DNA of 64,000 nucleotides from a virus: positions 38,311 through 102,310 of IMG/VR virus record IMGVR_UViG_3300008259_000014; one strand, given 5' to 3'. Within the stretch, counting starts at the first letter, position 1. Every line of letters begins with the position of its first letter. The notes beneath the pieces are model-generated. The model searched no databases. It was not told where the DNA came from and was given only the letters and a program-made list of their open reading frames with translations. Of the stretch, positions 28,731 to 62,572 are shown piece by piece. Position numbers and translations under genes: made by a program.

Positions 28731-28737
28731 CCGTCTG

Positions 28738-34063: not shown

Positions 34064-34119
34064 CCTTTTGGTGGGCCTTCTTGCCCACCAACCTATAATC
34101 GGAATAAAACCCGGATCAC
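34064..34119 (-). promoter_or_regulatory. Promoter GTGATCC-15-TATAGG plus leader hairpin
   Basis: The minus strand has an A-tract, GTGATCC (113-119 of this kilobase block, 34113-34119), 15 bases, then TATAGG (34092-34097). The leader forms a 7-bp GGTGGGC/GCCCACC hairpin. Same layout as the promoters near 41.1, 47.0, 50.3 and 56.9 kb. Confidence 0.6.
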
Positions 34120-34126
34120 CTTTTTT

Positions 34127-37421: not shown

Positions 37422-37465
37422 ACAAATCCAAAGTTTTTGCACGGCGGCGGCTAAGTTGAATTTGT
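37422..37465 (+). ncRNA. Structured leader motif, copy A
   Basis: An outer stem ACAAAT/ATTTGT (37422-37427 with 37460-37465) encloses CAAAGTTTTTG and CACGGC...CTAAGTT. The same inner sequence recurs on the minus strand at 57010-57043 inside a different outer stem (GCGGG/CCCGC). Each copy is upstream of a gene on the same strand, here the M23 lysin. Probably a cis-acting RNA; function unknown. Confidence 0.45.
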
Positions 37466-41040: not shown

Positions 41041-41084
41041 TTTCTACCGGCACCCTATTATACGGGGAAAATTTTTCGGATCAC
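41041..41084 (-). promoter_or_regulatory. Promoter GTGATCC-15-TATAAT plus leader hairpin
   Basis: A-tract, GTGATCC (41078-41084), 15 bases, TATAAT (41057-41062), then a CCGGT/ACCGG hairpin before the ribosome site of the 40490 gene. Confidence 0.65.
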
Positions 41085-41105
41085 ATTTTTTCTTATGCAG
41101 CTTAG

Positions 41106-44531: not shown

Positions 44532-45338
44532 TTATTTTTGCAAATAAGCTTCTCTTTTTTCAGCAGATAAAGCTTCCAGCCACTTTTCCTTTAGCTTATA
44601 CTCTACTCCATCTAAATACCATTCTTCGATTTTACAGCGCCATTCAATGGCTGGACCGTCATCTCTGTGAAGCTTTCCATATTTATACCAAAATTTTGTT
44701 CCATCGCTGTTCTCACAAGCAGGTCCGTCCAATCTATGCCATTTTCCATCTAGAAGCCATGATTCCTTTCCATTCTCAATGATAGCAGGTCCATTCTCTC
44801 TATGTAGCTTGCCACGGAAATACCATTCATAATCACCATTTCCATATTCTACTGCGGGACCATCTACCCTATGTCGTATACCATCAATATACCACTCTTT
44901 ACTTCCATTTAACCACTCTTTTGTTTCATTTGACCACTTTAGACATTCAGTAGCCGGGCCGTCCACTCTATGAAGCTTTCCTTTTACAAACCAGAGTTTG
45001 TTGCCATTAAAAAATTCTATAGCCGGACCATCTATTCTGTGGCACTTTCCATCCTGAAACCAATATTTCACATCGCTAGAGTCAATGGCAGGGCCTCCAA
45101 CTCTATGAAGTTGTCCATGTATATACCAAGCTGTTGCACCATCTTCATATTCAATGGCAGGGCCATCCTCTCTATGCAACTTTCCTTCTTTGCACCAAAA
45201 GAGGCTTCCTGAAGAATCTTGAGTCATTCCATCTGGATAAGATGGAAAGGCCCCATTATAATAAATCATTCTTGACACTTTCATCCTACCATCTGGATAG
45301 GATGGAAAGGCCCCATTGGTATATGCAGTGTTAGACAT
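44532..45338 (-). CDS. Repeat protein with LHRxDGPA units
   Basis: 268 residues built from about eight repeats of roughly 20-25 residues of the form W-(Y/F)-x-x-G-K-(L/C/W)HR-x-(D/G/N)GPA (at about residues 55-240). A second, N-terminal tandem repeat YNGAFPSYPDG is visible twice, with a matching direct nucleotide repeat at 45236-45256 and 45296-45316. Such repeat proteins are common in large phages and giant viruses; a binding role is likely but unproven. Confidence 0.65.
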   Translation of the reverse strand: MSNTAYTNGAFPSYPDGRMKVSRMIYYNGAFPSYPDGMTQDSSGSLFWCKEGKLHREDGPAIEYEDGATAWYIHGQLHRVGGPAIDSSDVKYWFQDGKCHRIDGPAIEFFNGNKLWFVKGKLHRVDGPATECLKWSNETKEWLNGSKEWYIDGIRHRVDGPAVEYGNGDYEWYFRGKLHRENGPAIIENGKESWLLDGKWHRLDGPACENSDGTKFWYKYGKLHRDDGPAIEWRCKIEEWYLDGVEYKLKEKWLEALSAEKREAYLQK

Positions 45339-45360: not shown

Positions 45361-46899
45361 TTAGCGACTATGAATATCAGAAATAGTCTTGGTGATAAGA
45401 CTCTTCATCTCATCAGAGATGACATCAGCCTTGGCTGGCAGAGAGGTCCACTCACGATTGAGTCGGTCACGCATCTGCTGGAAAGTCTCAGGAATCCAGG
45501 TAGTAATGCCTCGATCATAGACAGTCTCAAGCATATTGAATTCAATGCGCTTATCATGCCATCCAACACCGGTCATTGGAAAGACGGTGGGAACTCCACC
45601 AACCTTATTAACCTGCATATTGCCAGGAAGAGAAACCTTACCAGAGTCAGTCTTAGGAGCCTTCATGATAGCACGCTCCTGACCAGAGACAGTAATGCTG
45701 CAAACCTTGATAGCAGCCTTGAGGGTGTCACGAGTCTGAGACTGAAGGAGTCCTCCACCCATACCGAAAGCAACATTCTGAGCCGACCAGCCATGCTGAA
45801 TGACGGCTTCGAGAATCTCCTTGACCTTGGCAAGATCAAGACCGTCTCCCTGGATTACAGCAGCGCCAGTGATAACCCTATAACCCTTGCTATTAGTAAC
45901 ATACCCAAAGGCATTAGCAAGTCCAGCAAGACCGGTAAGAACCGCATCAGTAGGATCGCCACTATCAGGGCGAAGAACAAAGAGAATACCCTTTGCCTTT
46001 GCTTCATCAACAATCTGAGGCACAATATTCCAAACAAAGTTGGTGTAGTCGTAGCTGTCTGCAACTACAGAGAGAATCTGTCCAGTGGGAGTATTTGCAA
46101 TGAGATGACGAACGGCAGTCAGCTCATCGTCATGAGTGGTCATGACAGAGTGCTCAGAGGCAATAACAGACTCGCCAATGCCAACGCCGTTATTCCACTT
46201 GGTAGCAAGCCAGCCAGCAGTCATGGTATCAGTTCCCTCGAAAGAGAGTAGATGACCCATACCAGTGGTCATAGCAGTCTCGGCAGAGGAGACGCCACGG
46301 CTACCAAAGTCATGGAAGCGGGAAGCAAGAAGAAAGTCGCAATCAGAATCAACAGTCTTGTCAAAGGCATCGCGAATAGACTGCCAGACGTGACGAGACT
46401 TAGTTGCAGTGACGCTAGGCGACCAGATGCGCATAAGCGAAGTCTCAAGCCAAGTAGTCAGCTTGGCAAACTTACCAGAGCCAGTAATGGTAAAGACAGG
46501 AACGCCAGGATAAACTACAGTTCCGTCGCGAAGTGCCTTGACAGTAAAAGGAAGATAACCATTGTGATTATCAACAATATCCTGCCAAAGATCCTTGGGC
46601 CAATTGATTCGAGACTTGGCAACACCATGCTGGGAAAGATAGCTCTCAGCCTCATCAATATCGGCCTGAGTAAAGCGACGGCTCAAGATAGTCTCAATGG
46701 CATAGCGAAGACCGAAGACCACAATACGATGATCATCGTTATTGAGAGGGCCGCGGAAAGTAAAGTAAGCAGTCATGCTATCCACATCTTCGCGATACTG
46801 GAAGTGATGAGTAGCCTTGTAGGTGTCAGTGTCAAGGATGGCGGGAACCTCGCTAGAGGTGAGGCGGCGAATAGGAAACTGAGCATTAGTGAACGACAT
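45361..46899 (-). CDS. nadV: Nicotinamide phosphoribosyltransferase
   Basis: 512 residues of the NAMPT family, which makes NMN from nicotinamide and PRPP. DTDTYKATHHFQY starts the core; SRFHDFGSRGVSS, ASEHSVMTTH (catalytic His), VLRPDSGDP (catalytic Asp) and GMGGGLLQ (phosphoribosyl binding) follow. The length is normal. Its G+C content and codon use are visibly higher than the neighbours, suggesting separate transfer. It shares a conserved leader with the nadM gene at 48438-49466; together they rebuild NAD+. Confidence 0.95.
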   Translation of the reverse strand: MSFTNAQFPIRRLTSSEVPAILDTDTYKATHHFQYREDVDSMTAYFTFRGPLNNDDHRIVVFGLRYAIETILSRRFTQADIDEAESYLSQHGVAKSRINWPKDLWQDIVDNHNGYLPFTVKALRDGTVVYPGVPVFTITGSGKFAKLTTWLETSLMRIWSPSVTATKSRHVWQSIRDAFDKTVDSDCDFLLASRFHDFGSRGVSSAETAMTTGMGHLLSFEGTDTMTAGWLATKWNNGVGIGESVIASEHSVMTTHDDELTAVRHLIANTPTGQILSVVADSYDYTNFVWNIVPQIVDEAKAKGILFVLRPDSGDPTDAVLTGLAGLANAFGYVTNSKGYRVITGAAVIQGDGLDLAKVKEILEAVIQHGWSAQNVAFGMGGGLLQSQTRDTLKAAIKVCSITVSGQERAIMKAPKTDSGKVSLPGNMQVNKVGGVPTVFPMTGVGWHDKRIEFNMLETVYDRGITTWIPETFQQMRDRLNREWTSLPAKADVISDEMKSLITKTISDIHSR

Positions 46900-46915
46900 G
46901 ATTATCTCCTTTGGA

Positions 46916-46962
46916 ATTACCAGTTTTTACGCGGCTGGCCCTCGGCAATAATACAGTATTGC
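46916..46962 (-). promoter_or_regulatory. Conserved structured leader of nadV
   Basis: A 29-base block (46916-46944) is identical to one before nadM (49481-49509). Read on the minus strand it has CCAG/CTGG arms around an 11-base loop, preceded by a GCAATA/TATTGC hairpin (46945-46962) and followed by CC and the GGAG ribosome site. The corresponding hairpin before nadM has a different sequence (CAGCA/TGCTG) but also a 6-base loop. A TGG/CCA pairing could compete with the CTGG arm near the ribosome site. Looks like a shared cis-regulatory RNA. Confidence 0.65.
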
Positions 46963-46987
46963 TCTGTTTGTAAAACCCTTAGCGTTC

Positions 46988-47042
46988 CTTACTGTGCGGC
47001 AACCGCCGCACCATAATATAAACGGAAGGGTTCCTGGATCAC
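46988..47042 (-). promoter_or_regulatory. Promoter GTGATCC-15-TATATT and leader hairpin
   Basis: GTGATCC (47036-47042), 15 bases, TATATT (47015-47020), then a GTGCGGC/GCCGCAC leader hairpin with loop GGTT. Heads the nadV transcript; the 191-base spacer between 46899 and 47091 holds this promoter and the shared leader and no gene. Confidence 0.65.
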
Positions 47043-47090
47043 GATTTTTATTATAGCTCTAACTTGGCGCAGAATTACGCCCTTAGACCG

Positions 47091-47531
47091 TCAAGAATGG
47101 CGAGGAAACTTCCGCTCTTTGATTCCAAGGCTGATGAGATATTCTCTCATTTCTTTTGGAGTCATATCGAACTCAAAGTGACCTTCCATATTATTTATAC
47201 CAAGAAATTTTTCATCTTTTGAAATAAGATGTACTTGTCTAAAAGTATCATCAATGCATTTGTTTTTATAAAAAAAATCTTCTTCACATATCCAGGCATA
47301 ACTAAGATTGGGGTATATTTGAACGCCTGATGATTCATACCACTCTTCGTCTTGCATGTATTCCATAGAAAAGCATATATGGCCATTCTTTAGGTTGGAG
47401 CACTTATTAACTACAAGTCTTGCCCAAGGAAGGGCAATATCATCTCTCCATCCATGACCAGTTTCAGAATCTCTATCTTCTATAAAAATATAATTTTTTG
47501 AAGTAACTACATTATCCATTTGTCCACTCAT
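47091..47531 (-). CDS. Unknown 146-residue protein
   Basis: Trp, Asp and aromatic-rich, alpha/beta; no recognised motif. An internal ATG four residues in is a possible start because the outer one lacks a clear ribosome site. Confidence 0.55.
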   Translation of the reverse strand: MSGQMDNVVTSKNYIFIEDRDSETGHGWRDDIALPWARLVVNKCSNLKNGHICFSMEYMQDEEWYESSGVQIYPNLSYAWICEEDFFYKNKCIDDTFRQVHLISKDEKFLGINNMEGHFEFDMTPKEMREYLISLGIKERKFPRHS

Positions 47532-47542
47532 AAATAGTATAA

Positions 47543-47860
47543 CTAGTCTTCTTCAATTGGTATAAGATACTTGGTATCTCCCGAATCACTGATATACATT
47601 GGATATGAGTCGCCTACTTTTTCGTTTACAACCTGATAATAATTGAACAAATCAGACCCCTCTTCGGAGTATGGAGAATACCATCTATCTCCACAGCATG
47701 GGCAGTCTATACCCATTGATACTCCTCCAAAGTATACTCCAAAATATATTTGGGCTGCGGAGTCTGCTTTTTCTATATTTTCTGCCTCTATAAATATTCT
47801 TGTATACTCTCCTTTGAATTCACCAAAAGAGTTATTTTGACTGTAACAGTAGATGGGCAT
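47543..47860 (-). CDS. Small Cys-containing phage protein
   Basis: 105 residues with CPCCGDRW near the middle, a zinc-like motif seen in many T4-like and large-phage proteins, and an N-terminal segment FIEAENIEKADSAA. GGAGAGATA precedes the ATG, which overlaps the upstream stop by TAATG. Function unknown. Confidence 0.6.
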   Translation of the reverse strand: MPIYCYSQNNSFGEFKGEYTRIFIEAENIEKADSAAQIYFGVYFGGVSMGIDCPCCGDRWYSPYSEEGSDLFNYYQVVNEKVGDSYPMYISDSGDTKYLIPIEED

Positions 47861-48108
47861 TATCTCTCCATTATATTAAATTTTATCCATAAGGACCCCC
47901 CCATAGATAGGACTGATACAGATAAGCTATCCGAATCAGACTTGAATTTTAAATCTTTAATCCTACTCATATTAAGAACCCATATCGTAGATTTATCTAC
48001 ATTCTTGATTGCCTCATATCTAAATATGACATGATCATTCTCAATCATGATTATGACAACATCACCATAGAATTCATGTATAGCCCAGCAGCCAGGATAC
48101 AAAGACAT
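47860..48108 (-). CDS. Small unknown protein
   Basis: 82 residues, beta-rich, no motif. Coupled to the 47543 gene by TAATG. Confidence 0.5.
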   Translation of the reverse strand: MSLYPGCWAIHEFYGDVVIIMIENDHVIFRYEAIKNVDKSTIWVLNMSRIKDLKFKSDSDSLSVSVLSMGGSLWIKFNIMER

Positions 48109-48110
48109 TA

Positions 48111-48422
48111 TTATGTAGGCTCAATTTCTTTGGGAGTAATCATTACTTCGATAAACTTTTCATTGTAAAAAATCTTGCAAACAAATACATTGCATTCAGT
48201 TTCAGAATTAATAGAGTCATCTTCGGAAGTAAGAGTGCTGTAAGCCAAATCGCTAATGGCATTGATATTGTAAATAGAATTTTCTAGATATTTATCTGCG
48301 GAAATAAGCATACAAGGCTCGTTGTCAAGCCTCCAGCTTTCCTTTTGAGAATACCAGTAAAGTTCAGGCTTAATTACAATAAAACGACCAATGCAGGATT
48401 TAAGTCTTTCTTCGCTATTCAT
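48111..48422 (-). CDS. Small unknown protein
   Basis: 103 residues with two Cys (NEPCML, ETECNV); no recognised domain. AGGATTAAT precedes the ATG. Follows nadM by 15 bases. Confidence 0.5.
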   Translation of the reverse strand: MNSEERLKSCIGRFIVIKPELYWYSQKESWRLDNEPCMLISADKYLENSIYNINAISDLAYSTLTSEDDSINSETECNVFVCKIFYNEKFIEVMITPKEIEPT

Positions 48423-48437
48423 ATTAATCCTAGATTG

Positions 48438-49466
48438 TTACTTGCAAAAGCTAATGCAATCTTTTGCAATATGGAAATGATCTTCCATAAATAGCTTTGC
48501 ATTCATTGCATCAGTAAGCATGGAAATTGGAAGCCATGCAACACCGGCTGCATCGTCAGCGGCAGTAACATCAATTTCATACTTATCAGGAATCATCCAT
48601 GCAAAAGCATGGGTAATAGTTCTGCCGCGAGTAGAGCGATTAGGATGATCAAACACCTTTGAACTCTTAAGCCACTCTTCCATCATTGGAAGCTTGGCTC
48701 CAGAATTAGGATTTCTAACTGTAAACAGAGTTTCCTCTCTGAGCTCACGAAGTGCAGATTCCTTAATAAACTCACCACTCTCAATGAAGCCTCCAGGCAT
48801 AGCATAAAGGCCCTTACCAGGCATACCCTTTCTAATTACTGCAAGAAAGCTGCTTCTATGTACTACAACAGAATCGACAGTCACAAAGATGGGAGGAAAC
48901 GGAGACTTGCTCCAGGCCTGCTTATAACGCTTGATATAAGCCCACTCCTCAAAAAGGTGATTAGCAGTAGTCTTAAAAAATCTCATGGTAATGTCATACG
49001 ACTTGCTAGAAAAAGCCCAGTGAAGAGAGGTATTCTTACCTTCAAAGATTGCCTCACGAACCATGGTTGCATTGATGGTATGACCTTTTTCATCAGTATA
49101 CTGAGGGCAGTCCACAACCTCAATATCATCACCAAAGATTTTTAGATAGTAAGTGCTTTCATCCTTATTAGAGCCTACAATGCAGGAGTTCTTGCAGTCG
49201 CTAATAATCTCTTTAATCTGACTAACCCAAAGCCTATCATCATATGGATAATCGCAAATTGGTATGACAGTTACATTTGGAAACTCAGATTTAATAATCT
49301 CTGCACGCTCTTCAAAAGTAAGAGGATTCTTGATAGAGCGAGCTACGTTTGCCGAGCCAACAAGAATTGTAACTTCCTTTCCAAGCTTTAGAGCAGACTG
49401 GATAAGGAAAGCGTGTCCAATATGGAAGGGCTGAAAGCGACCAATAACAAAAGCCTTATTCTTCAT
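48438..49466 (-). CDS. nadM: NMN adenylyltransferase fused to Nudix hydrolase
   Basis: 342 residues. The N-terminal half is an NMN adenylyltransferase (FVIGRFQPFHIGHAFLI with the GxFxxxHxGH-like motif; PLTFEERAEII), which joins NMN and ATP to give NAD+. The C-terminal half is a Nudix hydrolase with GGFIESGEFIKESALRELRE followed by ET, the complete Nudix box. The same fusion occurs in bacterial NadM-Nudix enzymes and in phage KVP40. With nadV it completes a two-step NAD+ salvage route. Confidence 0.95.
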   Translation of the reverse strand: MKNKAFVIGRFQPFHIGHAFLIQSALKLGKEVTILVGSANVARSIKNPLTFEERAEIIKSEFPNVTVIPICDYPYDDRLWVSQIKEIISDCKNSCIVGSNKDESTYYLKIFGDDIEVVDCPQYTDEKGHTINATMVREAIFEGKNTSLHWAFSSKSYDITMRFFKTTANHLFEEWAYIKRYKQAWSKSPFPPIFVTVDSVVVHRSSFLAVIRKGMPGKGLYAMPGGFIESGEFIKESALRELREETLFTVRNPNSGAKLPMMEEWLKSSKVFDHPNRSTRGRTITHAFAWMIPDKYEIDVTAADDAAGVAWLPISMLTDAMNAKLFMEDHFHIAKDCISFCK

Positions 49467-49480
49467 AATATCTCCTTGGT

Positions 49481-49526
49481 ATTACCAGTTTTTACGCGGC
49501 TGGCCCTCGACAGCAAGAAAGTGCTG
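49481..49526 (-). promoter_or_regulatory. Conserved structured leader of nadM
   Basis: The 29-base block (49481-49509) is identical to the nadV leader. On the minus strand the preceding hairpin is CAGCA/TGCTG (49511-49515 with 49522-49526) with a 6-base loop, different in sequence from the nadV hairpin but equivalent in form. TGGT and ACCA can pair next to GGAG. Confidence 0.65.
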
Positions 49527-49539
49527 CTCTTTTAACTAA

Positions 49540-50159: not shown

Positions 50160-50275
50160 CTGTAGCTGATAATCTACCTCTTGATAATGGTATTATCAAT
50201 AATGGACTTTTTAATGGCCGCCATGTATGCTCGGCCGCCAACGGTTAAATATATCCCGGCTAAATCCTGGATCAC
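50160..50275 (-). promoter_or_regulatory. Promoter GTGATCC-15-TATATT and hairpin leader
   Basis: A-tract, GTGATCC (50269-50275), 15 bases, TATATT (50248-50253). The leader contains a perfect TTGATAAT/ATTATCAA hairpin (50181-50199) just before GAGG. A 16-codon frame in the leader (MAAIKK..., 50174-50224) has no clear ribosome site. No other gene lies in the 195-base spacer. Confidence 0.6.
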
Positions 50276-50335
50276 GATTTTTCTTAATCTGCTAAGATGG
50301 GCAAGATTGTCGCTAAACTGCCGCCCTATAATTAT

Positions 50336-53129: not shown

Positions 53130-53205
53130 TGGTGCCCAAAACCGGGTTCGAACCGATGACCTACTGCTTACAAGGCAGTTGCTCTACCAACTGAGCTATT
53201 CGGGC
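53130..53205 (-). tRNA. tRNA-Thr (anticodon UGU)
   Basis: Cloverleaf with encoded CCA. Acceptor GCCCGAA, anticodon loop CTTGTAA, T-arm GGTTCGAACC. Confidence 0.95.
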
Positions 53206-53322
53206 AATATTTTATTGTTGTAAATATGTTCTAAATATCATATTTATACCGCAAACAGAATTAAAAATTTGTAAATTTAATATAATCTGCGGAATAATTG
53301 ATACTAAGCTTTCTGAGTAAAG

Positions 53323-53359
53323 AAGCCCCTGGAATAATAAAAAATTCCAGGGGCTTTTT
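53323..53359 (+). terminator. Strong hairpin between tRNA genes
   Basis: A perfect 13-bp stem (53323-53335 with 53343-53355) has TTTTT after it in the plus direction and a weaker TTCTTT in the minus direction. The stretch 53205-53365 has no gene otherwise. It may divide two tRNA transcripts or stop antisense transcription. Confidence 0.6.
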
Positions 53360-53364
53360 GTAAG

Positions 53365-53456
53365 TGGCGGATAGTGAAGGACTCGAACCTCCGGACCCCT
53401 TTCAGGGCTCATCGCATTTCAAGTGCGCGCCGTTATGACCACTTCGGTAACTATCC
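53365..53456 (-). tRNA. tRNA-Ser (anticodon UGA)
   Basis: 92-nt class II tRNA with long variable arm (GAGCCC/GGGGTC), loop CTTGAAA, G discriminator and encoded CCA. Confidence 0.93.
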
Positions 53457-53468
53457 TAATATTTTAAA

Positions 53469-53544
53469 TGGTTGATAAGATAGGAATCGAACCTATAACC
53501 TACGGAGTCAGAGTCCGTCGCTCTGCCAGTTGAGCTACTCATCA
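53469..53544 (-). tRNA. tRNA-Gln (anticodon CUG)
   Basis: 76-nt cloverleaf, anticodon stem ACGGA/TCCGT, loop CTCTGAC, CCA encoded. Confidence 0.93.
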
Positions 53545-53594
53545 ATATAAATATATTATACTTAATACATTTATTAAAAACAAACTATTTTAAA

Positions 53595-53670
53595 TGGTAG
53601 TCGAAGAGGGGCTCGAACCCACGACCTAATCGGTGTAAACGATTTGCTCTCCCAGCTGAGCTATTCGACT
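53595..53670 (-). tRNA. tRNA-Val (anticodon UAC)
   Basis: 76-nt cloverleaf, stem AATCG/CGATT, loop TTTACAC, CCA encoded. Ends three bases from the 53674 gene's stop. Confidence 0.94.
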
Positions 53671-53673
53671 GTA

Positions 53674-53955
53674 TTAATCAAAATAATATTCATCGTATGG
53701 AATTCCTTTATTTGTTTTAAAGGATCTATAATGCTTTATTAAGAATGCTCTATTATTAATAGAATTAATATCTTTTTCAGTACCTTCATAAACTTTCTTT
53801 ATTGACCAAACCCTATCGTCTCCCTTTAGTTTTATATTGCTAAAATTGGAAATAGATTTTTGAATCCACAAAGACTGCGAGGCATTTCCAGATTCTATAT
53901 CTGCAAAAATATACTCTTCTGGAAAACTCATATTATCATTAAGAAATTCGTGCAT
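53674..53955 (-). CDS. Small unknown protein
   Basis: 93 residues, no motif. Overlaps the HAD nucleotidase gene by 17 bases and ends next to tRNA-Val. Confidence 0.5.
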   Translation of the reverse strand: MHEFLNDNMSFPEEYIFADIESGNASQSLWIQKSISNFSNIKLKGDDRVWSIKKVYEGTEKDINSINNRAFLIKHYRSFKTNKGIPYDEYYFD

Positions 53956-54589
53956 GATTCTTTATAGCCTCTATTGTTGCCATACTTTCACCTGGTACAT
54001 GAAGAATTCCAACACCTCCTGCCTTATTCCAGGCGTCAATTGTAGAAAATTTATCATCTATTAAAATATGTGGAACAAGATCGCCGTCAACAACAGATAA
54101 AGCGTATTTATATTTCATCCTGGCTGGAGTTATATAGACATTTTTTGGATTTGGCTTTAGCCATTTTCTTGCCCAGGCAGTCTTACCTTCTATTGCTGGA
54201 GTTCCGATAAATGAAACATTCTGATCAATTGGAGCAGTAAGCATATTTACAGGTATGCCTAGAGAATTTATAAATGGCCACAATTCATTAATTCCATCCT
54301 CTAGTGGGATAAGGCTAGAGAAAAATAGTCCAGGATTACAGCCTATAGCTGTAAAAAGAAGGTCTCTTGCTCTCTGAGAGTCCATCATAAATTTTTCATG
54401 GAGATACAATTCAGAGTTTATATTTTTATTGAAGAAATCAATATTTTCATTGACAATTTTTTCTACTTCGTAATTTATAAAAATCTTCTCCTCTCCTGCT
54501 ACAATTGACTTCATTAGTTTTTCTGCAGCAGGAAAGAAATCAGCTACAACTCCGTCCATATCACAAAAAATAGAAACTGGCTTTTTCAT
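53939..54589 (-). CDS. HAD phosphatase, 5'-nucleotidase-like
   Basis: 216 residues. FCDMDGVVADFF (DxDxV), NMLTAP (motif II), GKTAWARKWL (motif III Lys) and HILIDDKFSTI (motif IV) match the 5'(3')-deoxyribonucleotidase group of HAD enzymes. It would recycle or regulate nucleotides. AAGGAG precedes the ATG. Confidence 0.8.
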   Translation of the reverse strand: MKKPVSIFCDMDGVVADFFPAAEKLMKSIVAGEEKIFINYEVEKIVNENIDFFNKNINSELYLHEKFMMDSQRARDLLFTAIGCNPGLFFSSLIPLEDGINELWPFINSLGIPVNMLTAPIDQNVSFIGTPAIEGKTAWARKWLKPNPKNVYITPARMKYKYALSVVDGDLVPHILIDDKFSTIDAWNKAGGVGILHVPGESMATIEAIKNHARIS

Positions 54590-54599
54590 GAAAATCTCC

Positions 54600-54992
54600 T
54601 TACCAATGTTCGATTATTGTTCCGCTTTTTACAGCATAATCCATAAGCTGATCTTCTGTGGGCACAAACATCTCATTATCAAACAAATCTTTCAATCTAT
54701 TAGCCCTTCTTATTGCTTTTTCTTCTTTTTCTAATGGTCCATTTAATGATACAGCAGAATCATCAATTGAGCCAAATAATAACCTTGCGTAATAAAGGTC
54801 TTTTTGATAATCTTTAACAACACACAAGGTCGCATCGGAGCCTATCATTCCATAGTAAAACGATGCTGAATTTGGACCAACATAGAAGATTTTGGTATAT
54901 TGCGCATAAGCATCTTGCGTCGCTATCCATCTTGCCCTCTTGCTTATTTCAGAAAGCAAATCATAAGTAGGTATATTTGATAGATCTTCCAT
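54600..54992 (-). CDS. Unknown 130-residue protein
   Basis: Alpha/beta protein with no recognised motif. AAGGTGAAA precedes the ATG. Sits between HAD nucleotidase and tRNA-Ser. Confidence 0.55.
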   Translation of the reverse strand: MEDLSNIPTYDLLSEISKRARWIATQDAYAQYTKIFYVGPNSASFYYGMIGSDATLCVVKDYQKDLYYARLLFGSIDDSAVSLNGPLEKEEKAIRRANRLKDLFDNEMFVPTEDQLMDYAVKSGTIIEHW

Positions 54993-55016
54993 AGTTTCAC
55001 CTTTTTTATTTAAAAG

Positions 55017-55103
55017 CGGATGCGAGAGGAGTCGAACCTCTGGAACCTTTTACAGTTCGCAGCTTTAGCAAAGCTGAGCAATAGACCACTCTGCCACGCA
55101 TCC
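55017..55103 (-). tRNA. tRNA-Ser (anticodon GCU)
   Basis: 87-nt class II tRNA, stem CAGCT/AGCTG, loop TTGCTAA, G discriminator, CCA not encoded. Confidence 0.92.
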
Positions 55104-55109
55104 TAATAA

Positions 55110-55562
55110 TTATTTGCAGTTTGCATTATACCATTCTTCATCATCAGTCTCTCCGCACTTACAGGCTTTTTGATAACTCATATCATTAAAAGACTTAAGC
55201 TCTTCTTTTTTATGATGTGTAAGAGGGATTGGAAGTGAATAGTAAAAAGCCTCAGTAGCTTCTTCTATCAAGAGCTTTAACTCTTTCTTGTCTTCGCTGG
55301 ACAATGGTTCTTTTTCAGACTTCATAATAATATCTTTTATTAAGCCAATTTTATTTTTGGTCCAGCCAATATTAAGTCCTATGTGACCTTCCCACATCTT
55401 ATAAGACTCTTTTTTTTCTTCATCGCTAGAAGCCCACTCAATATTATCTAACACCAAATCATATATATTTTTTGACATCTCTTTAAACTGAGGCTTGCTT
55501 GGCTTTCTTGGCGCTCTTTTTGCTATCTTAGTTAGCTCTAAAATTCTGCTTGCTCTACTCAT
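55110..55562 (-). CDS. Unknown charged protein
   Basis: 150 residues beginning MSRASRILELTKIAKRAPRK; basic start, helical middle, then CKCGETDDEEWYNANCK with three Cys near the end. ATG 55562 has GGAG upstream. The N-terminal RILELTKIA resembles short targeting or processing peptides of virion proteins of large phages, but this is a guess. Confidence 0.5.
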   Translation of the reverse strand: MSRASRILELTKIAKRAPRKPSKPQFKEMSKNIYDLVLDNIEWASSDEEKKESYKMWEGHIGLNIGWTKNKIGLIKDIIMKSEKEPLSSEDKKELKLLIEEATEAFYYSLPIPLTHHKKEELKSFNDMSYQKACKCGETDDEEWYNANCK

Positions 55563-55607
55563 TAGAATCTCCAATAGAATCTTTTATATTAGCAAACAAA
55601 TATAAGA

Positions 55608-55679
55608 TAGGGGTACCTGGACTCGAACCAGGAAACAGAGGTTCAAAGCCTCCAGTGTTGCCAATTACACTATACCCCA
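55608..55679 (-). tRNA. tRNA-Gln (anticodon UUG)
   Basis: 72-nt cloverleaf, loop CTTTGAA, weak 1-72 pair as usual for Gln tRNA; CCA not encoded. Confidence 0.9.
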
Positions 55680-55705
55680 TCAACTTTCTTTTTATTATTT
55701 ATATA

Positions 55706-55779
55706 TGGCACCGCCCCAGAGAATCGAACTCCGATCAAGTGATTTGGAATCACCTATTCTACCATTGAACTAGAGCGGT
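55706..55779 (-). tRNA. tRNA-Trp (anticodon CCA)
   Basis: 74-nt cloverleaf, stem GGTGA/TCACT, loop TTCCAAA, G discriminator, CCA encoded. Confidence 0.93.
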
Positions 55780-55802
55780 ATATTTCGCCTCCTCGTGATA
55801 AT

Positions 55803-55830
55803 ATATTAACCAGGGATTAGTTGGCGGCAA
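55803..55830 (-). promoter_or_regulatory. Promoter, TTGNNN-16-TANNAT family
   Basis: The minus strand reads TTGCCG, 16 bases with CTAATCCCTGGT, TAATAT. An A-rich tract lies upstream. It would drive tRNA-Trp, tRNA-Gln and the genes beyond. Confidence 0.55.
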
Positions 55831-55874
55831 TAATTTTTTTATTTTTTTTCAAAGGCCGCATTATTTGGCCTAAT

Positions 55875-56840
55875 TTAAGCCAATGACTCAAGAATCTTGA
55901 TAAGATTATTATCACTTACATCTGCAAATGTAATGTGCTGACCAGGCTTTAAGCTATTGATAATTTTGCTTGATCCAATCTGGTTGCGCTTATAAGATTT
56001 AGGGTTAAAAATTGATGAGAACTGCTTTATATATTTATCATCGTGAGGTGCAGCCACCCTTTTGAAGGTGCACTCTGCAACTCTACGCTTAACAATCTCA
56101 TTAAGGCCGTAAAGATGGATAAGCTTGTTGGACTTAGATACATCAAAGTCAAAAGGAAGTACTGCGGTGTACCCCTCCCAGTTAGCAACAATGTGGTCTT
56201 TCTTTTCTGCACCTGTAATAATAATTTTTACCCAAAAACTTGTTCCAGGCTTCATATAACGATAACCACTATTCAGTGATTCTACAATCCAATGAACATA
56301 CATTGATCTATTTAGTTCAAACAAAAAGTAATAATTATCATTATATTTTATGATTTTAGACTTCTCTAAATTATCTTTATAATTGCTTTTTTCTTTTTGT
56401 GCTTTATAGTAATTAAGAATTCCTGTATTAGCATCAACCCAGAAAATACCGCTTCTATAGTTACGAGCACCAATGTTAATGCCCTTTGAGTTATAGAGAA
56501 TATCCCCTTCTTTTACGATATCTTTCTCAACCATATAATCAAGATGCTGATGCACGTGTATCTGCAAAGTTCCATCCTTTGGAAGAACTTTGCAAATCTC
56601 AGAATAAACATCATCCCAAAGCATTTTTTTATTGCTACACTTTCTTAAAAATCCTTTAATTGGAGATAGAAAGTCGTTTAGCTGCTTTGTCTTTTTACTT
56701 TTAAGCTCAAAAGCGATAGAGGCAACCTCGTCTTCTTCTGGCTTTTTACGAAGCCTCTTTCTTACAGATATCATTCCTTTTTCGTATTTACCGCCAGTTC
56801 TTGGCCTCTCACAGATAATCTTTTTTGCGTCCTCCCTCAC
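55875..56840 (-). CDS. Unknown 321-residue protein
   Basis: Basic N-terminus (RPRTGGKYEKGMISVRKRLR), then mixed alpha/beta; the 150-250 region is beta-rich. No motif recognised. The start is GTG 56840 with GAGGGG six bases upstream. It has its own promoter and a long structured leader, so it is probably regulated. Confidence 0.55.
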   Translation of the reverse strand: MREDAKKIICERPRTGGKYEKGMISVRKRLRKKPEEDEVASIAFELKSKKTKQLNDFLSPIKGFLRKCSNKKMLWDDVYSEICKVLPKDGTLQIHVHQHLDYMVEKDIVKEGDILYNSKGINIGARNYRSGIFWVDANTGILNYYKAQKEKSNYKDNLEKSKIIKYNDNYYFLFELNRSMYVHWIVESLNSGYRYMKPGTSFWVKIIITGAEKKDHIVANWEGYTAVLPFDFDVSKSNKLIHLYGLNEIVKRRVAECTFKRVAAPHDDKYIKQFSSIFNPKSYKRNQIGSSKIINSLKPGQHITFADVSDNNLIKILESLA

Positions 56841-56872
56841 AGCGTACCCCTCTATTTTTATATTATTAGACA

Positions 56873-56899
56873 GCTATAAGCCGTAGAAAAGTGGTATCA
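56873..56899 (-). promoter_or_regulatory. Promoter, GTGATCC-like
   Basis: A-tract then TGATACC (56893-56899), 14 bases, TATAGC (56873-56878). With one extra base in the first box and one fewer in the spacer, the distance matches the four GTGATCC-15 promoters. Confidence 0.45.
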
Positions 56900-57009
56900 T
56901 TTTTTTCTAATGTATTATTATTTAGCCGGCTAATAATATATATCCTTCTAAATTAGCTGACTAAGTTCAATATGTAGAAAATCAGAATGAAGTGTAAATC
57001 TTAAAAATT

Positions 57010-57043
57010 GCGGGAACTAAGCCGTGCAAAAACTTTGCCCCGC
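57010..57043 (-). ncRNA. Structured leader motif, copy B
   Basis: An outer stem GCGGG/CCCGC encloses a GCAAA-GTT-TTTGC hairpin and ACGGCTTAGTT. The inner sequence matches copy A (37422-37465, plus strand). The region 56900-57119 holds no gene; besides this it contains small hairpins (ATGCT/AGCAT, TAGAC/GTCTA, CATTG/CAATG followed by a T-tract that may end the 57120 gene). Confidence 0.45.
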
Positions 57044-57119
57044 TATCGAAAGGTAGATTATTAGACAGAAGTCTATTAAAAAATTACATTGGCAATGCTA
57101 GGTAAGCATCCCCAAACTA

Positions 57120-57695
57120 TTATTTCAGACTTTTAATTATTTCATTTAAATGAAAGAGAATTGGTATTCTGAAACTAATTGAGGGACCTGTAAAAAAGAA
57201 TGTATCATATTCAGGTCTTTTTGTTATAATTGCAGAAAAATCAGCTTCAAATCCATGAGAAATTAACTTTTCAGCATTGCTAATGCTATTATAAGAAATT
57301 TCATTATTACAAATTTCTCGCAACTCTTGAATTGCATCCAGCTCTTCTTTTTCAGCTGAATCATCAACCGCGTAAATAAAGAAATGCTTTGGGTTCTTAC
57401 TATCAAGATCCCATTTATAGACCTCTTCTACGTAACCAATTAAAAAGCTCCAGCTAGAGCATATGCTCTTAACATAGATACCGTTTGCAAGCTTCTCTGC
57501 GTAAAAATCAGCATCGCCAAACCAACTCTCACCCTCACAAAGTAAAGGATAGACTTTATAATATGCTTGAAACAAATCTTCAAGCAATTGACTAGTTGCT
57601 TTAGCCAGGAAGGCCCTTGTCTCTTCTGAGCTGTTTAGGTAATCTCTTGAGTAAAGCTTTTCAATCTGAATTGGTTTACTAAATTTTTCAATCAT
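57120..57695 (-). CDS. Unknown 191-residue protein
   Basis: Helical, aromatic-rich; no motif. GAGGTTTT precedes the ATG. Confidence 0.55.
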   Translation of the reverse strand: MIEKFSKPIQIEKLYSRDYLNSSEETRAFLAKATSQLLEDLFQAYYKVYPLLCEGESWFGDADFYAEKLANGIYVKSICSSWSFLIGYVEEVYKWDLDSKNPKHFFIYAVDDSAEKEELDAIQELREICNNEISYNSISNAEKLISHGFEADFSAIITKRPEYDTFFFTGPSISFRIPILFHLNEIIKSLK

Positions 57696-57711
57696 AAAAC
57701 CTCATTTATGT

Positions 57712-57900
57712 TTATCTACTTGGGTTTGCTCCGGCATCAGTAGCAAGATTCCAGCGATTCAATCTTTCTAGATTTTCTTTTTCTACAATGCAGGAGTTAC
57801 ACATATTGCAGGGAAGAAATCCAGCATGATTATAATAATTTGAATGCTTGTGATAAGAGCATTCGTATGCTTCATACTTCTTCTTTTTAGAAGACTTCAT
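57712..57900 (-). CDS. Small Cys/His-rich protein
   Basis: 62 residues with CSYHKH, CNMC and C-x7-type Cys positions that could bind zinc. Overlaps the next gene by 14 bases. Function unknown. Confidence 0.5.
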   Translation of the reverse strand: MKSSKKKKYEAYECSYHKHSNYYNHAGFLPCNMCNSCIVEKENLERLNRWNLATDAGANPSR

Positions 57901-58186
57901 AGTAGTCTGAATGTCTCACTCCCCACTTTTCCAATTCATTTTCAAGTTCATCTTCAGTCAGGATTGGACTGAAATAAACATAACATGCAGTTGTGCGACG
58001 CACACCAGTCCAATAACTATCGGTTCTTCCGATTTCTTTTAAAAACTGTTCGATTGCTTCGTATCGCTCATCTTCTAAAATGTCGACTCGTTTGTGATCC
58101 AAAACATCTGGAATAACAAGCCTGTCTTCAAGAATGGTCATTGGCTGAGCTGCCTTAACAAGTTGTCTGATTTTTTCGTAGTCCAT
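57887..58186 (-). CDS. Small unknown protein
   Basis: 99 residues starting MDYEKIRQLVKAAQ at ATG 58186 with AGGAG six bases upstream; a longer frame to 58219 is less likely. No motif. Confidence 0.55.
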   Translation of the reverse strand: MDYEKIRQLVKAAQPMTILEDRLVIPDVLDHKRVDILEDERYEAIEQFLKEIGRTDSYWTGVRRTTACYVYFSPILTEDELENELEKWGVRHSDYYEVF

Positions 58187-58187
58187 A

Positions 58188-58619
58188 TTAGACTCCTGGT
58201 TGTTGTGTTTTCTTTTCAAGCTCTAAAAGAATCTCATCTTGAATTGAGCATTTTAAAATGCCGTATTCTTTTCCTACGCTATCGGGCCAGCAATCTGATA
58301 TTTTTGGACCGTGACCCCACTTTTTAAATCTTTCGTTAAAAATATCAACAAATGCAAGAAATGCTTCTTCATAAGTTTTATGAATAGAAATAATTTCTGC
58401 ATCATAAACGTATGATCCGCTGCCTCCTAAAATAAAAACTTCTTTTGCGTCATCATCTATATGACTTGCTTCAATTTCTATAACTGGTCCGGTAGTTGCG
58501 TATCTATACTTTCTAAGAAGCGGAGCGTTCTCCTTGTCCCTTAAAAGGCCACAAAGCCTGTTAGTGTCGTCCCATCCAGTTGGAGCGCCACCCGAATAAA
58601 CTGCAAATATTTTTGACAT
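58188..58619 (-). CDS. Unknown 143-residue protein
   Basis: Starts MSKIFAVYSGGAPTGW; alpha/beta, no assigned domain. AAGGATAAAGT precedes the ATG. Its stop is one base from the next start. Confidence 0.55.
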   Translation of the reverse strand: MSKIFAVYSGGAPTGWDDTNRLCGLLRDKENAPLLRKYRYATTGPVIEIEASHIDDDAKEVFILGGSGSYVYDAEIISIHKTYEEAFLAFVDIFNERFKKWGHGPKISDCWPDSVGKEYGILKCSIQDEILLELEKKTQQPGV

Positions 58620-58636
58620 ACTTTATCCTTTTTATT

Positions 58637-59287
58637 TTAGATTGACTTGTTTTTTTGAGAACATAACGAAAGAACTCGTGAAGCTTCAGTCTTTGCTCCG
58701 TCCATAGGGATTTCATATAAGTTAATCAAATAACCGTCGTCAAGATTAACACGAATGATTAATCTTTCAGCGTTTAGAATTGTTATTAAATCTGATGAAT
58801 TAAGATAATACATTCCAGGTATTTCGATTTTAGTTGAAAGATTGGATGTCCATTTATCAAGAGTAAGTATTCCATCATCTTCAACTCTAGAAGTCCAAGA
58901 GGATATTAGTTTTGCTGAGCTGCCGCTAACTGCATACACTGTTATTACATCATCTTCATTTTTACTAGAAATCCTTGTTTCTCGTTTTAAAAGACCCACA
59001 TCTCTTTTAGAGAATAAGGTAATGATTATACCAGGCCCATTGGACGTTACATAGCAACTATACAAAAAACTAGAATATGCGACATCTTTATATATAAAAT
59101 CTCTTGTAATTGAATAGTATGAAGTCCCATCATTCGCAATCCCGTTTTTTAGCTCCCAGTAAGGCTGGGTTGGCTTCCATTCAGAGTCTTTGACTAGCGG
59201 TTGCGTAATTGAAGTTGAAGAATGATTATCATCTGCAATTGCGTTTGCAAATAGCAAGGACAGCGTCAGCAAAATAGACGAAAGCAT
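58637..59287 (-). CDS. Secreted protein with Sec signal peptide
   Basis: 216 residues. The N-terminus MLSSILLTLSLLFANAIADD is a hydrophobic signal with an AxA-type cleavage site near residue 18. The mature part is beta-rich with two Cys. It should act in the host envelope, for example on surface receptors or exclusion. AGGAGACTTT precedes the ATG. No family recognised. Confidence 0.65.
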   Translation of the reverse strand: MLSSILLTLSLLFANAIADDNHSSTSITQPLVKDSEWKPTQPYWELKNGIANDGTSYYSITRDFIYKDVAYSSFLYSCYVTSNGPGIIITLFSKRDVGLLKRETRISSKNEDDVITVYAVSGSSAKLISSWTSRVEDDGILTLDKWTSNLSTKIEIPGMYYLNSSDLITILNAERLIIRVNLDDGYLINLYEIPMDGAKTEASRVLSLCSQKNKSI

Positions 59288-59328
59288 AAAGTCTCCTATT
59301 TTTAATTATAGACAGCGTCAAATTAAAA

Positions 59329-59405
59329 TGGTACGAGTGGATGGATTTGAACCAACGACCCTCACGGTATCAGCGTGATGCTCTAACCAACTGAGCTACA
59401 CTCGT
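59329..59405 (-). tRNA. tRNA-Ile (anticodon GAU)
   Basis: 77-nt cloverleaf, stem TCACG/CGTGA, loop CTGATAC, CCA encoded. A degenerate copy lies at 61502-61575. Confidence 0.94.
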
Positions 59406-59410
59406 ATAAA

Positions 59411-59485
59411 TGGTGGGAACGAACGGACTTGAACCGATATCACCTGAGCTTCAGTCAGGGGCTCTACCAATTGAGCTACAATCCC
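59411..59485 (-). tRNA. tRNA-Phe (anticodon GAA)
   Basis: 75-nt cloverleaf, stem CCTGA/TCAGG, loop CTGAAGC, CCA encoded; one T-T mismatch in the acceptor stem. Confidence 0.92.
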
Positions 59486-59527
59486 ATAGATTCCGTTTTT
59501 TTTGGAACGGTTTTCAGAAACCCTAGA

Positions 59528-59602
59528 TGGTACACCTAACGGGAATCGAACCCGTCATTCCGGCGTGAGAGGCCAGCGTCTTAACCGATTGACCATAGGT
59601 GC
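59528..59602 (-). tRNA. tRNA-Glu (anticodon CUC)
   Basis: 75-nt cloverleaf, stem CTGGC/GCCGG, loop CTCTCAC, CCA encoded. Reads GAG. Confidence 0.92.
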
Positions 59603-59608
59603 AAGAAA

Positions 59609-60037
59609 CTATCCCATTATTCCATATCCACCAATATCTATCCCCTGCTCTTGTTCGCAAAACTCATAAGCAAGCTGTGGATTTCCGACTTTTGCAATTT
59701 TCAGCCAAAGATTTATATAGTCATCACTGAAAATATCTTCACCAAATCCATAATCACCCTCATCATAATCATCATCATCAAGATTAGGCACATGATCTGC
59801 TAGATCATCAAAACCCGTGTCAAAGAATTTTGACATTTTTTTAATCATGTCAGGGGGAAGCTGCCTACTATCATACTCTGAAAACTGATCTGCAAATCTT
59901 ATTCCAATAATTTCTTCGCCCTTTTTAAAAGCAGCCTCTAACTCTTTAGAGGTTAAATTACATGAGATCCTTACATTACTATGTATTCCGTGGCCATCAC
60001 CACCTGGATCCCCAACAGATAATACAACTACATTCAT
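59609..60037 (-). CDS. Unknown acidic protein
   Basis: 142 residues with an Asp-rich run (LDDDDYDEGDYGFGEDIF near 84-101) and a helical C-terminus. AGGAATTACAA precedes the ATG. Begins between two tRNA genes and ends seven bases from tRNA-Glu. Function unknown. Confidence 0.5.
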   Translation of the reverse strand: MNVVVLSVGDPGGDGHGIHSNVRISCNLTSKELEAAFKKGEEIIGIRFADQFSEYDSRQLPPDMIKKMSKFFDTGFDDLADHVPNLDDDDYDEGDYGFGEDIFSDDYINLWLKIAKVGNPQLAYEFCEQEQGIDIGGYGIMG

Positions 60038-60063
60038 TTGTAATTCCTATTTATTTGTAAAAA

Positions 60064-60139
60064 TGGAGCGAGAGATGGGACTCGAACCCACAACAGCAAC
60101 CTTGGAAGGGTTGAACTCTACCAATTGAGTTACTCTCGC
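60064..60139 (-). tRNA. tRNA-Gly (anticodon UCC)
   Basis: 76-nt cloverleaf, stem CAACC/GGTTG, loop CTTCCAA, CCA encoded. Overlaps the 3' end of the HNH gene by 10 bases. Confidence 0.94.
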
Positions 60140-60741
60140 ATTTTGTTAGTACTTTCTAAATTCTTTTCATAAAATTTTATCCACTTTCTTACTGCATTAT
60201 CTGAAACACCATATTTCCTTGCAACAGAGCAGTAGTTTCCCTCTTTCAATTCTAAAATCAAATCTTCATAAGTTGGTCTTTCAACTTTCCTTGCCCTTAT
60301 CTTTGAGCAGCTTACTGAGCACGTAGAAAGTTTATTATCTTTTTCAGAATTACATATGGGGCAGTATGTTTTTTCCTTTTCCTTTTCTTTTGTTAAAACT
60401 TTCTTGTTTTTATTTTCTAGTCTAGATGGAGGTATATATTCTGAGTTAAATTTTGGAATCTCAGATGGAATACTTACCACTCCTGCATGAAACTCTCTAT
60501 GACAATTAGCACAAAGAAGTATGCATTTTTTTGCTTCGTCTAGAATCTTACCCCAGCTAACTATAGAGCCTCTAGCTCCACCAAGACCAAACTCTTTTTC
60601 GGCTGGATTTATATGGTGAAATTCAAGTGCATCCATACATTTCAAATATTTACATATTGCACATTTACCACCAAATCCTTCCACCAATCTTTTCTTAGTA
60701 TTCTCTCTCCACTTTTTTACCCGTTCCGAACTCTTGGACAT
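60130..60741 (-). CDS. HNH homing endonuclease with C-terminal HTH
   Basis: 203 residues. CAICK, LEFHHINPAEKEFG, and ILLCANCHREFH form the HNH domain; CPICNS and CSVSC add a zinc finger; the C-terminus VARKYGVSDNAVRKWIKFYE is a helix-turn-helix also present in the 62818 protein. ATG 60741 has GGAG upstream. Free-standing, inserted among tRNA genes. Confidence 0.8.
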   Translation of the reverse strand: MSKSSERVKKWRENTKKRLVEGFGGKCAICKYLKCMDALEFHHINPAEKEFGLGGARGSIVSWGKILDEAKKCILLCANCHREFHAGVVSIPSEIPKFNSEYIPPSRLENKNKKVLTKEKEKEKTYCPICNSEKDNKLSTCSVSCSKIRARKVERPTYEDLILELKEGNYCSVARKYGVSDNAVRKWIKFYEKNLESTNKMRE

Positions 60742-60797
60742 ATTAACTCCATATGATAATACATCCTTATTAGTATATTTATACTTATATTTTGAAA

Positions 60798-60874
60798 TGG
60801 CGGCCACGGCAGGGTACGATCCTGCGACCTAACGATTAACAATCGTTCGCTACTACCAGCTGAGCTACATGGCC
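60798..60874 (-). tRNA. tRNA-Asn (anticodon GUU)
   Basis: 77-nt cloverleaf, stem AACGA/TCGTT, loop TTGTTAA, G discriminator, CCA encoded. Confidence 0.93.
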
Positions 60875-60886
60875 ATTTAAACTTTA

Positions 60887-61198
60887 TTATGTTAAACCTA
60901 ACTCTTTCAACTCTTTATTGCTAATAAGCTCTCCACCTTCTTTCCCCGGAAGTAGCCTGTAAGCATAATAGATTTTTTTATAACTAATATTTCTCATATG
61001 CTCTATTAGAGGAATACAATCAAAAATTCTCTCTGTATTCCCATTATCCATCTTTCCCTTCTCTATTCTCTTCCAATTCTTTATCAACTTTGCAGGATCA
61101 GCAGATTCTCCACTATCAAATTGATCCGTTACAATAGAGGGGTTGTTAATCACCATCTTTGTTATTTCTACCTTGCACATGACGCTAGATACGCTCAT
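60887..61198 (-). CDS. Small unknown protein
   Basis: 103 residues, alpha/beta with PAKLIKNWKRIEKGK in the middle. AAGGATTTAGA precedes the ATG. The 200 bases upstream (61199-61398) carry no gene, only small dyads such as GCTGG/CCAGC and GGAG/CTCC. Function unknown. Confidence 0.5.
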   Translation of the reverse strand: MSVSSVMCKVEITKMVINNPSIVTDQFDSGESADPAKLIKNWKRIEKGKMDNGNTERIFDCIPLIEHMRNISYKKIYYAYRLLPGKEGGELISNKELKELGLT

Positions 61199-61398
61199 TC
61201 TAAATCCTTTGGTTATATTGTTTTTTCTAACTATTGAAGCCAGATCTCTGACTTGAGCATGGATCTACGAGATTTGATATGAATTCCCACCCTCAACCCT
61301 ACTAATGGAGCATAGACTCCAAACTTTCTGACCGTGCTAGTGTAGGATGTCCCCGGTTGCGAGGGATGCTGGTTATCCAGCGGTTTGGATGGGAAAAG

Positions 61399-61487
61399 TG
61401 GTGGGATGGAGAGGATTCGAACCTCTGATGGTATTTCTACGTCGGATTAAAAGTCCGCTCCCTTCGGCCAACTCGGGACACCAACCC
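61399..61487 (-). tRNA. Class II tRNA with UUU anticodon
   Basis: 89-nt cloverleaf with long variable arm (GTA-GAAA-TAC), as in Leu and Ser tRNAs. The anticodon loop is CTTTTAA, giving UUU, which normally means Lys. The discriminator is A and CCA is encoded; the acceptor has one T-T mismatch. The identity is therefore ambiguous: a Leu- or Ser-type body with a Lys anticodon. Confidence 0.75.
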
Positions 61488-61501
61488 ATTATATAAAGTG
61501 A

Positions 61502-61575
61502 TATGAGTGACAAGACTTGAACTTGAAACCTTTGCGGTATCAGCGCGAGGCTCTAACCAATTGAGCTATATTCGT
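61502..61575 (-). pseudogene. Degenerate tRNA-Ile (GAU) copy
   Basis: Closely follows the sequence of tRNA-Ile at 59329-59405 through D-arm and anticodon loop CTGATAC, but the acceptor stem has three or more mismatches and no CCA is encoded. The T-arm CAAG/CTTG is kept. Probably a decaying duplicate. Confidence 0.65.
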
Positions 61576-61593
61576 ATGTTACTTTTAATATAG

Positions 61594-61670
61594 TGGCGGT
61601 GTTAACGGGACTTGAACCCGTGGCCTTCGGCGTGACAGGCCGACGTTCTAACCAACTGAACTATAACACC
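61594..61670 (-). tRNA. tRNA-Asp (anticodon GUC)
   Basis: 77-nt cloverleaf, stem TCGGC/GCCGA, loop CTGTCAC, G discriminator, CCA encoded. Confidence 0.95.
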
Positions 61671-61681
61671 GTTATACTAAC

Positions 61682-61756
61682 TGGTGGAGCGAATGGGACT
61701 TGAACCCATAAGAACGCCGTGCAAAGGCGCCAGTTTTCCAATTAGCTTATCACCCC
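61682..61756 (-). tRNA. tRNA-Ala (anticodon UGC)
   Basis: 75-nt cloverleaf, loop TTTGCAC, CCA encoded. Its 5' end overlaps the last 15 bases of the 61742 homing endonuclease gene. The D-arm is slightly unusual. Confidence 0.88.
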
Positions 61757-62551: not shown

Positions 62552-62572
62552 CTACAATTCCCCAGAATTAAA

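Follow-up and report, generated by a model that had tools for sequence, protein, structure and literature searches.

A structured leader shared by nadV and nadM of a phage, and a different two-hairpin leader class at these genes in bacteria and other phages

The two NAD-salvage genes of the virus studied here, nadV and nadM, are each preceded by a leader of common design, in which a hairpin of variable sequence stands directly 5' of an identical 29-nt block close to the ribosome-binding site. This shared structured leader, restricted in its record to the two NAD-salvage genes, is supported by the identity, the rarity and the placement of its two copies. Most other phages with NadM-Nudix/NadV possess one leader type common to both genes, unlike that of this virus and here termed R1, and the element described first stands apart from it, an orphan at the same pair of genes. 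The explanation that we favor, while giving it somewhat less than an even chance, is that a cis-acting RNA element, read by a small molecule, tunes the translation of nadV and nadM jointly.

The window, a stretch of 64,000 nucleotides, comprises bases 38311-102310 of a 102,310-base virus record with 35% GC. Its NadV and NadM-Nudix constitute a nicotinamide salvage route, with both genes on the minus strand, and correspond to the phage NAD+ reconstitution pathway of NadV and NadM described in a survey which mentions neither riboswitches nor untranslated regions (PMC9503650). The window NadM-Nudix shares 35-38% identity over ~97% with annotated phage NadM/Nudix proteins. A DNA-level relative of the NAD region is absent among 50,697 phage records, and scans of IMG/VR, whose records are possibly fragments, with a single NadV or NadM sequence gave no match; a scan with DnaE retrieved one 10-kb fragment of 82% identity. 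The features relevant to the two leaders, with gene starts as chosen by a script, are as follows.

45361..46899, minus strand: nadV, nicotinamide phosphoribosyltransferase, 512 aa (Pfam NAPRTase 1e-34, NAMPT_N 4e-14)
46906..46909, minus strand: GGAG Shine-Dalgarno of nadV (sequence)
46916..46944, minus strand: 29-nt block of the nadV leader, CGAGGGCCAGCCGCGTAAAAACTGGTAAT (sequence identity to the nadM copy)
46920..46944, minus strand: possible H-type pseudoknot in the nadV block, with S1 46940-46944/46930-46934, S2 46935-46938/46920-46923 and A-rich loop 46924-46929 (geometry)
46945..46962, minus strand: nadV leader hairpin, 6 bp, 6-nt loop, GCAAUA-CUGUAU-UAUUGC (sequence)
46994..47011, minus strand: hairpin GTGCGG-CGGTTG-CCGCAC just 3' of the promoter-like element, where the nadV transcript probably begins (sequence)
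47015..47049, minus strand: promoter-like element 5' of nadV, AAAAATCGTGATCCAGGA, 11 nt, TATATT (sequence recurrence)
48438..49466, minus strand: nadM-Nudix, NMN adenylyltransferase fused to Nudix, 342 aa (Pfam CTP_transf_like and NUDIX)
49472..49475, minus strand: GGAG Shine-Dalgarno of nadM (sequence)
49481..49509, minus strand: 29-nt block of the nadM leader, CGAGGGCCAGCCGCGTAAAAACTGGTAAT (identical to the nadV copy)
49510..49527, minus strand: nadM leader hairpin, 6 bp, 6-nt loop, GCAGCA-CUUUCU-UGCUGU (sequence)

Beyond the NAD region, 18 tRNA genes (cmscan) are clustered at 53133-62769 (minus strand) of the window, among HNH-like and small ORFs, and a CyVA-1 RNA (RF02965, 59.2 bits) lies at 28728-28804 (minus strand), where a gene on the other strand (28035-28730) has its 3' end. 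Two GroEL-like genes, recognized by eye, occur in one phage record (window 9812-11419; L042:1083-2747, minus strand), which also carries IMP dehydrogenase, ClpP-like, sigma-70-like and DnaE genes. The short repeat GCCGTGCAAAAACTTT or a near-match is found in or near intergenic gaps at window 57021-57036 (plus strand) and 37430-37445 (minus strand), and at ~7922 and ~7971 (minus strand) of locus L043.

An earlier note, made from the sequence of the window, had pointed to the 29-base identity before nadV and nadM and to its restriction to these genes, and both claims are borne out. Each copy is 12-16 nt away from its start codon, and the block directly precedes nadM as well as nadV in this one genome. 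For a 19-nt core of the block, 0.01 chance matches are expected per window at <=3 mismatches and two perfect copies were found, while the whole 102,310-bp record holds no third copy of the block even at 9 mismatches. The further statement that each block ends at the ribosome site is correct as to its position near that site and exact only to within 5-7 nt.

The two hairpins, which the note had described as different in sequence and alike in form with a 6-base loop, are indeed so built, and their loops differ (CUGUAU and CUUUCU) whereas the block is invariant. Between the copies, 6/6 stem pairs are kept through five substitutions, with changes of A-U to G-C and of U-A to C-G, in which both sides changed, and of G-C to G-U. 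Random substitution retains all six pairs with a probability of 0.006 (0.6% of trials). All five substitutions are transitions, and with transitions only this probability rises to 0.16, so that the covariation proposed in the note is real, with every pair kept, two double compensations and one G-U, but carries moderate weight as evidence. The folding energy of the window leaders is ordinary (z about 0.2-0.3).

The block itself can be drawn as an H-type pseudoknot, in which S1 would pair CG(A)GG with CC(G)CG and S2 would pair CCAG with CUGG, loop 1 being one G and loop 3 UAAAAA. This geometry, also found in 0.4% of shuffled sequences and 0.8% of windows matched for GC, is suggestive only, as an unvarying block offers no covariation. 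The alternative-pairing switch that had been proposed, CCAG/CTGG versus TGG/CCA, fared less well: both pairings are possible on paper, but the second helix has 3 bp at nadV and 4 bp at nadM, with no compensatory change, and a switch whose details are not conserved between the copies is not supported by the two sequences.

The block is probably transcribed. About 70 bases upstream of the nadV leader lies a recurrent motif, AAAAAnnnTGATCCAGG followed after ~11 nt by a TATA-like sequence, which looks like a promoter of this phage. Its 18-mer recurs exactly at window 50265-50282 (minus strand), degenerate copies occur at ~34109-34126, ~9794-9811 and ~41074-41091 (minus strand) and at ~14366 of L043, and several copies directly precede a hairpin. 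Given this placement of the motif, transcription would begin about 50 nt before the nadV leader and so include it. At nadM, the leader directly follows the stop codon of the preceding gene, with about 73 nt between the genes.

Relatives of the exact element were sought at several levels. In agreement with the note, which knew of no described riboswitch of this layout, Rfam 15 (cmscan, gathering and relaxed at E<=10, including nadA/NAD+-I if among its families) places no family at either leader and returned one chance match to a Shine-Dalgarno. A covariance model of the window leader pair, termed R2, scores 90.9 and 88.1 bits on its own two sites; over 80 loci and 26 whole phage records these were the only sites, all others, in loci and records not chosen by sequence pattern, reaching <=17.5 bits as expected by chance. 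The 10-kb fragment found with DnaE gave no R2 match. When IMG/VR was searched with the block as a DNA pattern, exact or degenerate, all matches were coincidental; nine further loci fetched by exact pattern reached <=21.6 bits, a score explained by the pattern itself, and show no visible leader. Homology to the leader of L181, whose NadV is the closest relative (52% identity), was likewise rejected, its alignment score ranking about sixth of 232 leaders, which is not significant. The note had proposed such a covariance-model search, and the lack of any homologous leader of the exact element is half of what it had named as speaking against its proposal. Since the exact element has no homologue, the block is without covariation support.

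The same two genes are differently equipped elsewhere, as seen in the sequences upstream of nadM and nadV in seven annotated phages and 80 IMG/VR loci. In R1, a first hairpin with a variable stem and a five-base loop A-N-W-G-A (AUAGA, AGAGA, AGUGA, AAAGA, ACAGA) is followed by a linker and a second hairpin, which holds the Shine-Dalgarno in its loop (GGAGN) and ends at the start codon. The alignment A4 comprises forty leaders, selected by hairpin 1 and not by hairpin 2. Standard pairs fill 91.7% of the pair cells, compared with 49.8% after shuffling and 31-48% with slid partners, and the covariation score is 0.974 against 0.20; hairpin 2, which stood outside the selection, is 91% paired. The R1 covariance model shows strong covariation.

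R1 leaders were noted across the locus sets L051-L130, L179-L257 and L261-L340, and the E-values of R1 and R2, both built in this analysis, are rough. Over 87 phage loci R1 made 124 matches, all on the gene strand, with most family members at 25-54 bits. At E<=0.01, 73/85 matches end at a predicted nadM or nadV start; the other 12 include four nadM/nadV starts that the script had overlooked, genes for PnuC (two) and NadA (one), a phrog_1843 gene on two near-identical contigs, and short ORFs. Whole phage records (35, 5.7 Mb) contained matches in 32 cases, 64 in total and typically two per genome. Eight matches beyond the fetched loci were inspected: four precede NadV genes that do not adjoin nadM, one a PnuC gene, one a NadA gene and one the gene of an unidentified 346-aa protein, while a weak match at CysS was judged to be chance. 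In 68 NadV loci from contigs outside the model, 27/29 matches at E<=0.01 lie at predicted nadV/nadM starts. The nadM and nadV genes carrying R1 are sometimes unlinked in the genome, and NadM-Nudix was present in 21/21 R1-bearing genomes tested, which keeps NadM a candidate as obligatory reader.

The loop of R1 differs between lineages, with one type within a genome. By eye, a hairpin and a Shine-Dalgarno hairpin with their own shared loops were also recognized in cultured phages that R1 misses, Cronobacter phage GAP32 (GAAGUA/GUUGUA) and Escherichia phage EJP2 (GCGAA/GCGGA), and other loop types in the IMG/VR loci L181 (AUAA), L076 (AGGUA) and L077 (AUGUA). In some R1 leaders (L088, L113, L124) both hairpins bear the same pentaloop (AUAGA/AUAGA, GUAGA/GUAGA), which suggests a two-site reader. 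Furthermore, R1 occurs 5' of genes of unknown function, encoding phrog_1843, the 346-aa protein, an HREDGPA-repeat protein and small ORFs just 5' of nadM; these (L052:2227-2912; L166, G011:73411-73460; L392, G053:73620-74020; L393, L394, L395) are candidate members of an NAD-controlled gene set. The repeat protein with an R1 leader, in L392, adjoins nadM, and a similar HREDGPA-repeat protein is encoded in the window directly 3' of nadV (44532-45338, minus strand).

R1 is not confined to phages. In 80 bacterial chromosomal NadV loci it made 65 matches at E<=1, all on the gene strand and at the nadV start or an upstream nadM position, a protein search having verified the bacterial nadM positions in the genomes of the NadM co-occurrence test only. 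The bacteria concerned include, among others, Stenotrophomonas, Lysobacter, Dyella, Thiothrix, Caulobacter, Asticcacaulis, Psychrobacter, Pseudoalteromonas and Campylobacterota. Across 18 whole bacterial genomes (about 78 Mb), 14/14 matches at E<=0.01 fall at nadV/nadM loci. When 76 leaders outside the model were aligned by their search fit to R1, 85.8% of cells were paired, compared with 54.9% shuffled and 27-46% slid. The frequent G-U pairs and the one-sided orientation speak for R1 being RNA rather than a DNA operator such as that of NrtR. No Rfam 15 family matches R1 in the R1-bearing loci scanned, and no description of a leader at nadV/nadM was found in the open-access papers searched.

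The window leaders are separate from R1, since the R1 model fails on them: unfiltered, it reaches at best 2.7 bits by nadV and 2.0 bits by nadM, in each case on the opposite strand. The A-N-W-G-A loop of hairpin 1 is absent from the window leaders, and so is the Shine-Dalgarno hairpin of R1, no such hairpin being conserved in both window copies. The leaders are alike in serving the same genes from the same place, in being common to both genes of a genome, and in placing a variable-stem hairpin 5' of a segment which ends at the Shine-Dalgarno. The analogy is thus one of position and gene set, not of homology, and is evidence that the window element may work like R1 without belonging to it. With a different structured leader of high specificity at the same genes elsewhere, it becomes much more likely that the window leader is a control element of NAD salvage.

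Among described systems, the NAD+-II riboswitches (pnuC motif) were first reported exclusively from Streptococcus, mostly at pnuC, which they control with the ribosome-binding site within their pseudoknot (PMC7749635, PMC10085692). They resemble the window leader, in its predicted pseudoknotted form, as short leaders at an NAD-pathway gene with an A-rich strand, a ribosome-binding site in or beside the fold and proposed translational control. The crystallized sequence (AGAGCGUUGCGUCC...CACGGCUCUUUAAAAACAAAAGGAG) is unlike both the window leader and R1, and the S. parasanguinis aptamer core (PMC10085692) is absent from the window leaders by direct reading. The NAD+-I riboswitch (nadA motif), with tandem domains and known from Acidobacteria only (PMC7749635), is likewise a leader of NAD genes; Rfam gave no match in the window or the scanned R1-bearing loci. 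The Guanidine-II riboswitch (mini-ykkC) consists of two small hairpins with conserved ACGR loops, the second at the Shine-Dalgarno. R1 has a similar two-hairpin layout, but with the loops A-N-W-G-A and GGAGN and at different genes, and the likeness is a lead only.

In the mechanism that we favor, the two window leaders would represent a single cis-acting RNA element, present once directly before each ribosome-binding site in the untranslated region and allowing the phage to set the translation of both steps from nicotinamide to NAD together. The most likely reader would be one of the pathway's small molecules (NMN, NAD+ or nicotinamide). It might bind the invariant block, which probably adopts a pseudoknot fold 3' of the variable-sequence hairpin; binding could then change access to the nearby GGAG, and both genes would be throttled or released. 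For R1, translational control is likely because the Shine-Dalgarno sits in a covarying hairpin; for the window element it is inferred from position, and the pseudoknot, the ligand and the direction of control are likewise inferences. The identical block at two NAD genes only, the paired hairpin changes and the location of the block 3' of a promoter-like motif argue for such a reading, as does, by analogy, the occurrence of R1, with its strong covariation and its Shine-Dalgarno hairpin, at nadM, nadV and some pnuC/nadA genes in phages and at nadV/nadM in bacteria. The NAD+-II riboswitches, which hold the ribosome-binding site in their pseudoknot at pnuC, likewise count in its favor. Against it stand the missing homologue of the exact element, the ordinary fold energy and the failure of the window leaders in the R1 search.

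A protein, either NadM, NadV or another phage regulator, could instead bind the shared leader and repress or activate both genes as an autogenous operator, in the manner of T4 gp43 or the MS2 coat protein. This is a serious possibility, if a less probable one: constant-loop, free-stem hairpins near a Shine-Dalgarno are typical of protein operators, the R1 loop is lineage-specific yet uniform within a genome, as from a co-evolving protein, and NadM-Nudix accompanies R1 in every genome tested. In the window, however, it is the hairpin loop that varies and the 29-nt block that stays constant, and an invariant metabolite fits better than a lineage-specific protein because the same RNA form recurs in distant phages and several bacterial phyla. 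That the leader is a constitutive module for translation or mRNA stability, with no sensing, seems unlikely. Phage transcripts often bear stabilizing hairpins, and this phage has hairpins after several promoter-like motifs, but a general enhancer would be expected at many genes, whereas the window leader is confined to two NAD genes, and R1 is no less selective for its genes.

A stretch of DNA repeated without change at two co-functional genes might also indicate a promoter or a DNA operator, for instance of a repressor like NrtR, which represses NAD genes in bacteria (PMC6800001). We regard this as very improbable, as the block ends so close to the start codons, the promoter-like motif that recurs in this phage stands apart from it, 5' of the nadV leader, and the hairpin stems vary with pairing kept, including G-U; R1, too, is rich in G-U pairs and matches in one orientation. 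The existence of two copies only, identical over 29 nt, would fit a recent duplication of one leader carried along functionless, but the divergence seen in the hairpin and the neighboring bases has spared the block, and pairing survives the changes in the hairpin, which makes this account scarcely credible.

Taken more broadly, R1 may be an undescribed switch for NAD supply. It would join two known NAD riboswitch classes, both of narrow distribution, and is specific enough to serve as a genome-wide marker of NAD-related genes. We put forward, tentatively and at less than even likelihood, that R1 governs NAD salvage in phages and many bacteria as an undescribed NAD-pathway RNA switch, and that the window phage has independently evolved a pseudoknot switch at the same genes. 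Bacteria commonly respond to viruses by depleting NAD, which phages rebuild via NadV and NadM. If the proposal is true, phages that counter NAD-depleting immunity by rebuilding NAD use RNA to read NAD status, and with both genes under shared RNA control, the phage would time its counter-measure by NAD sensing or feedback.
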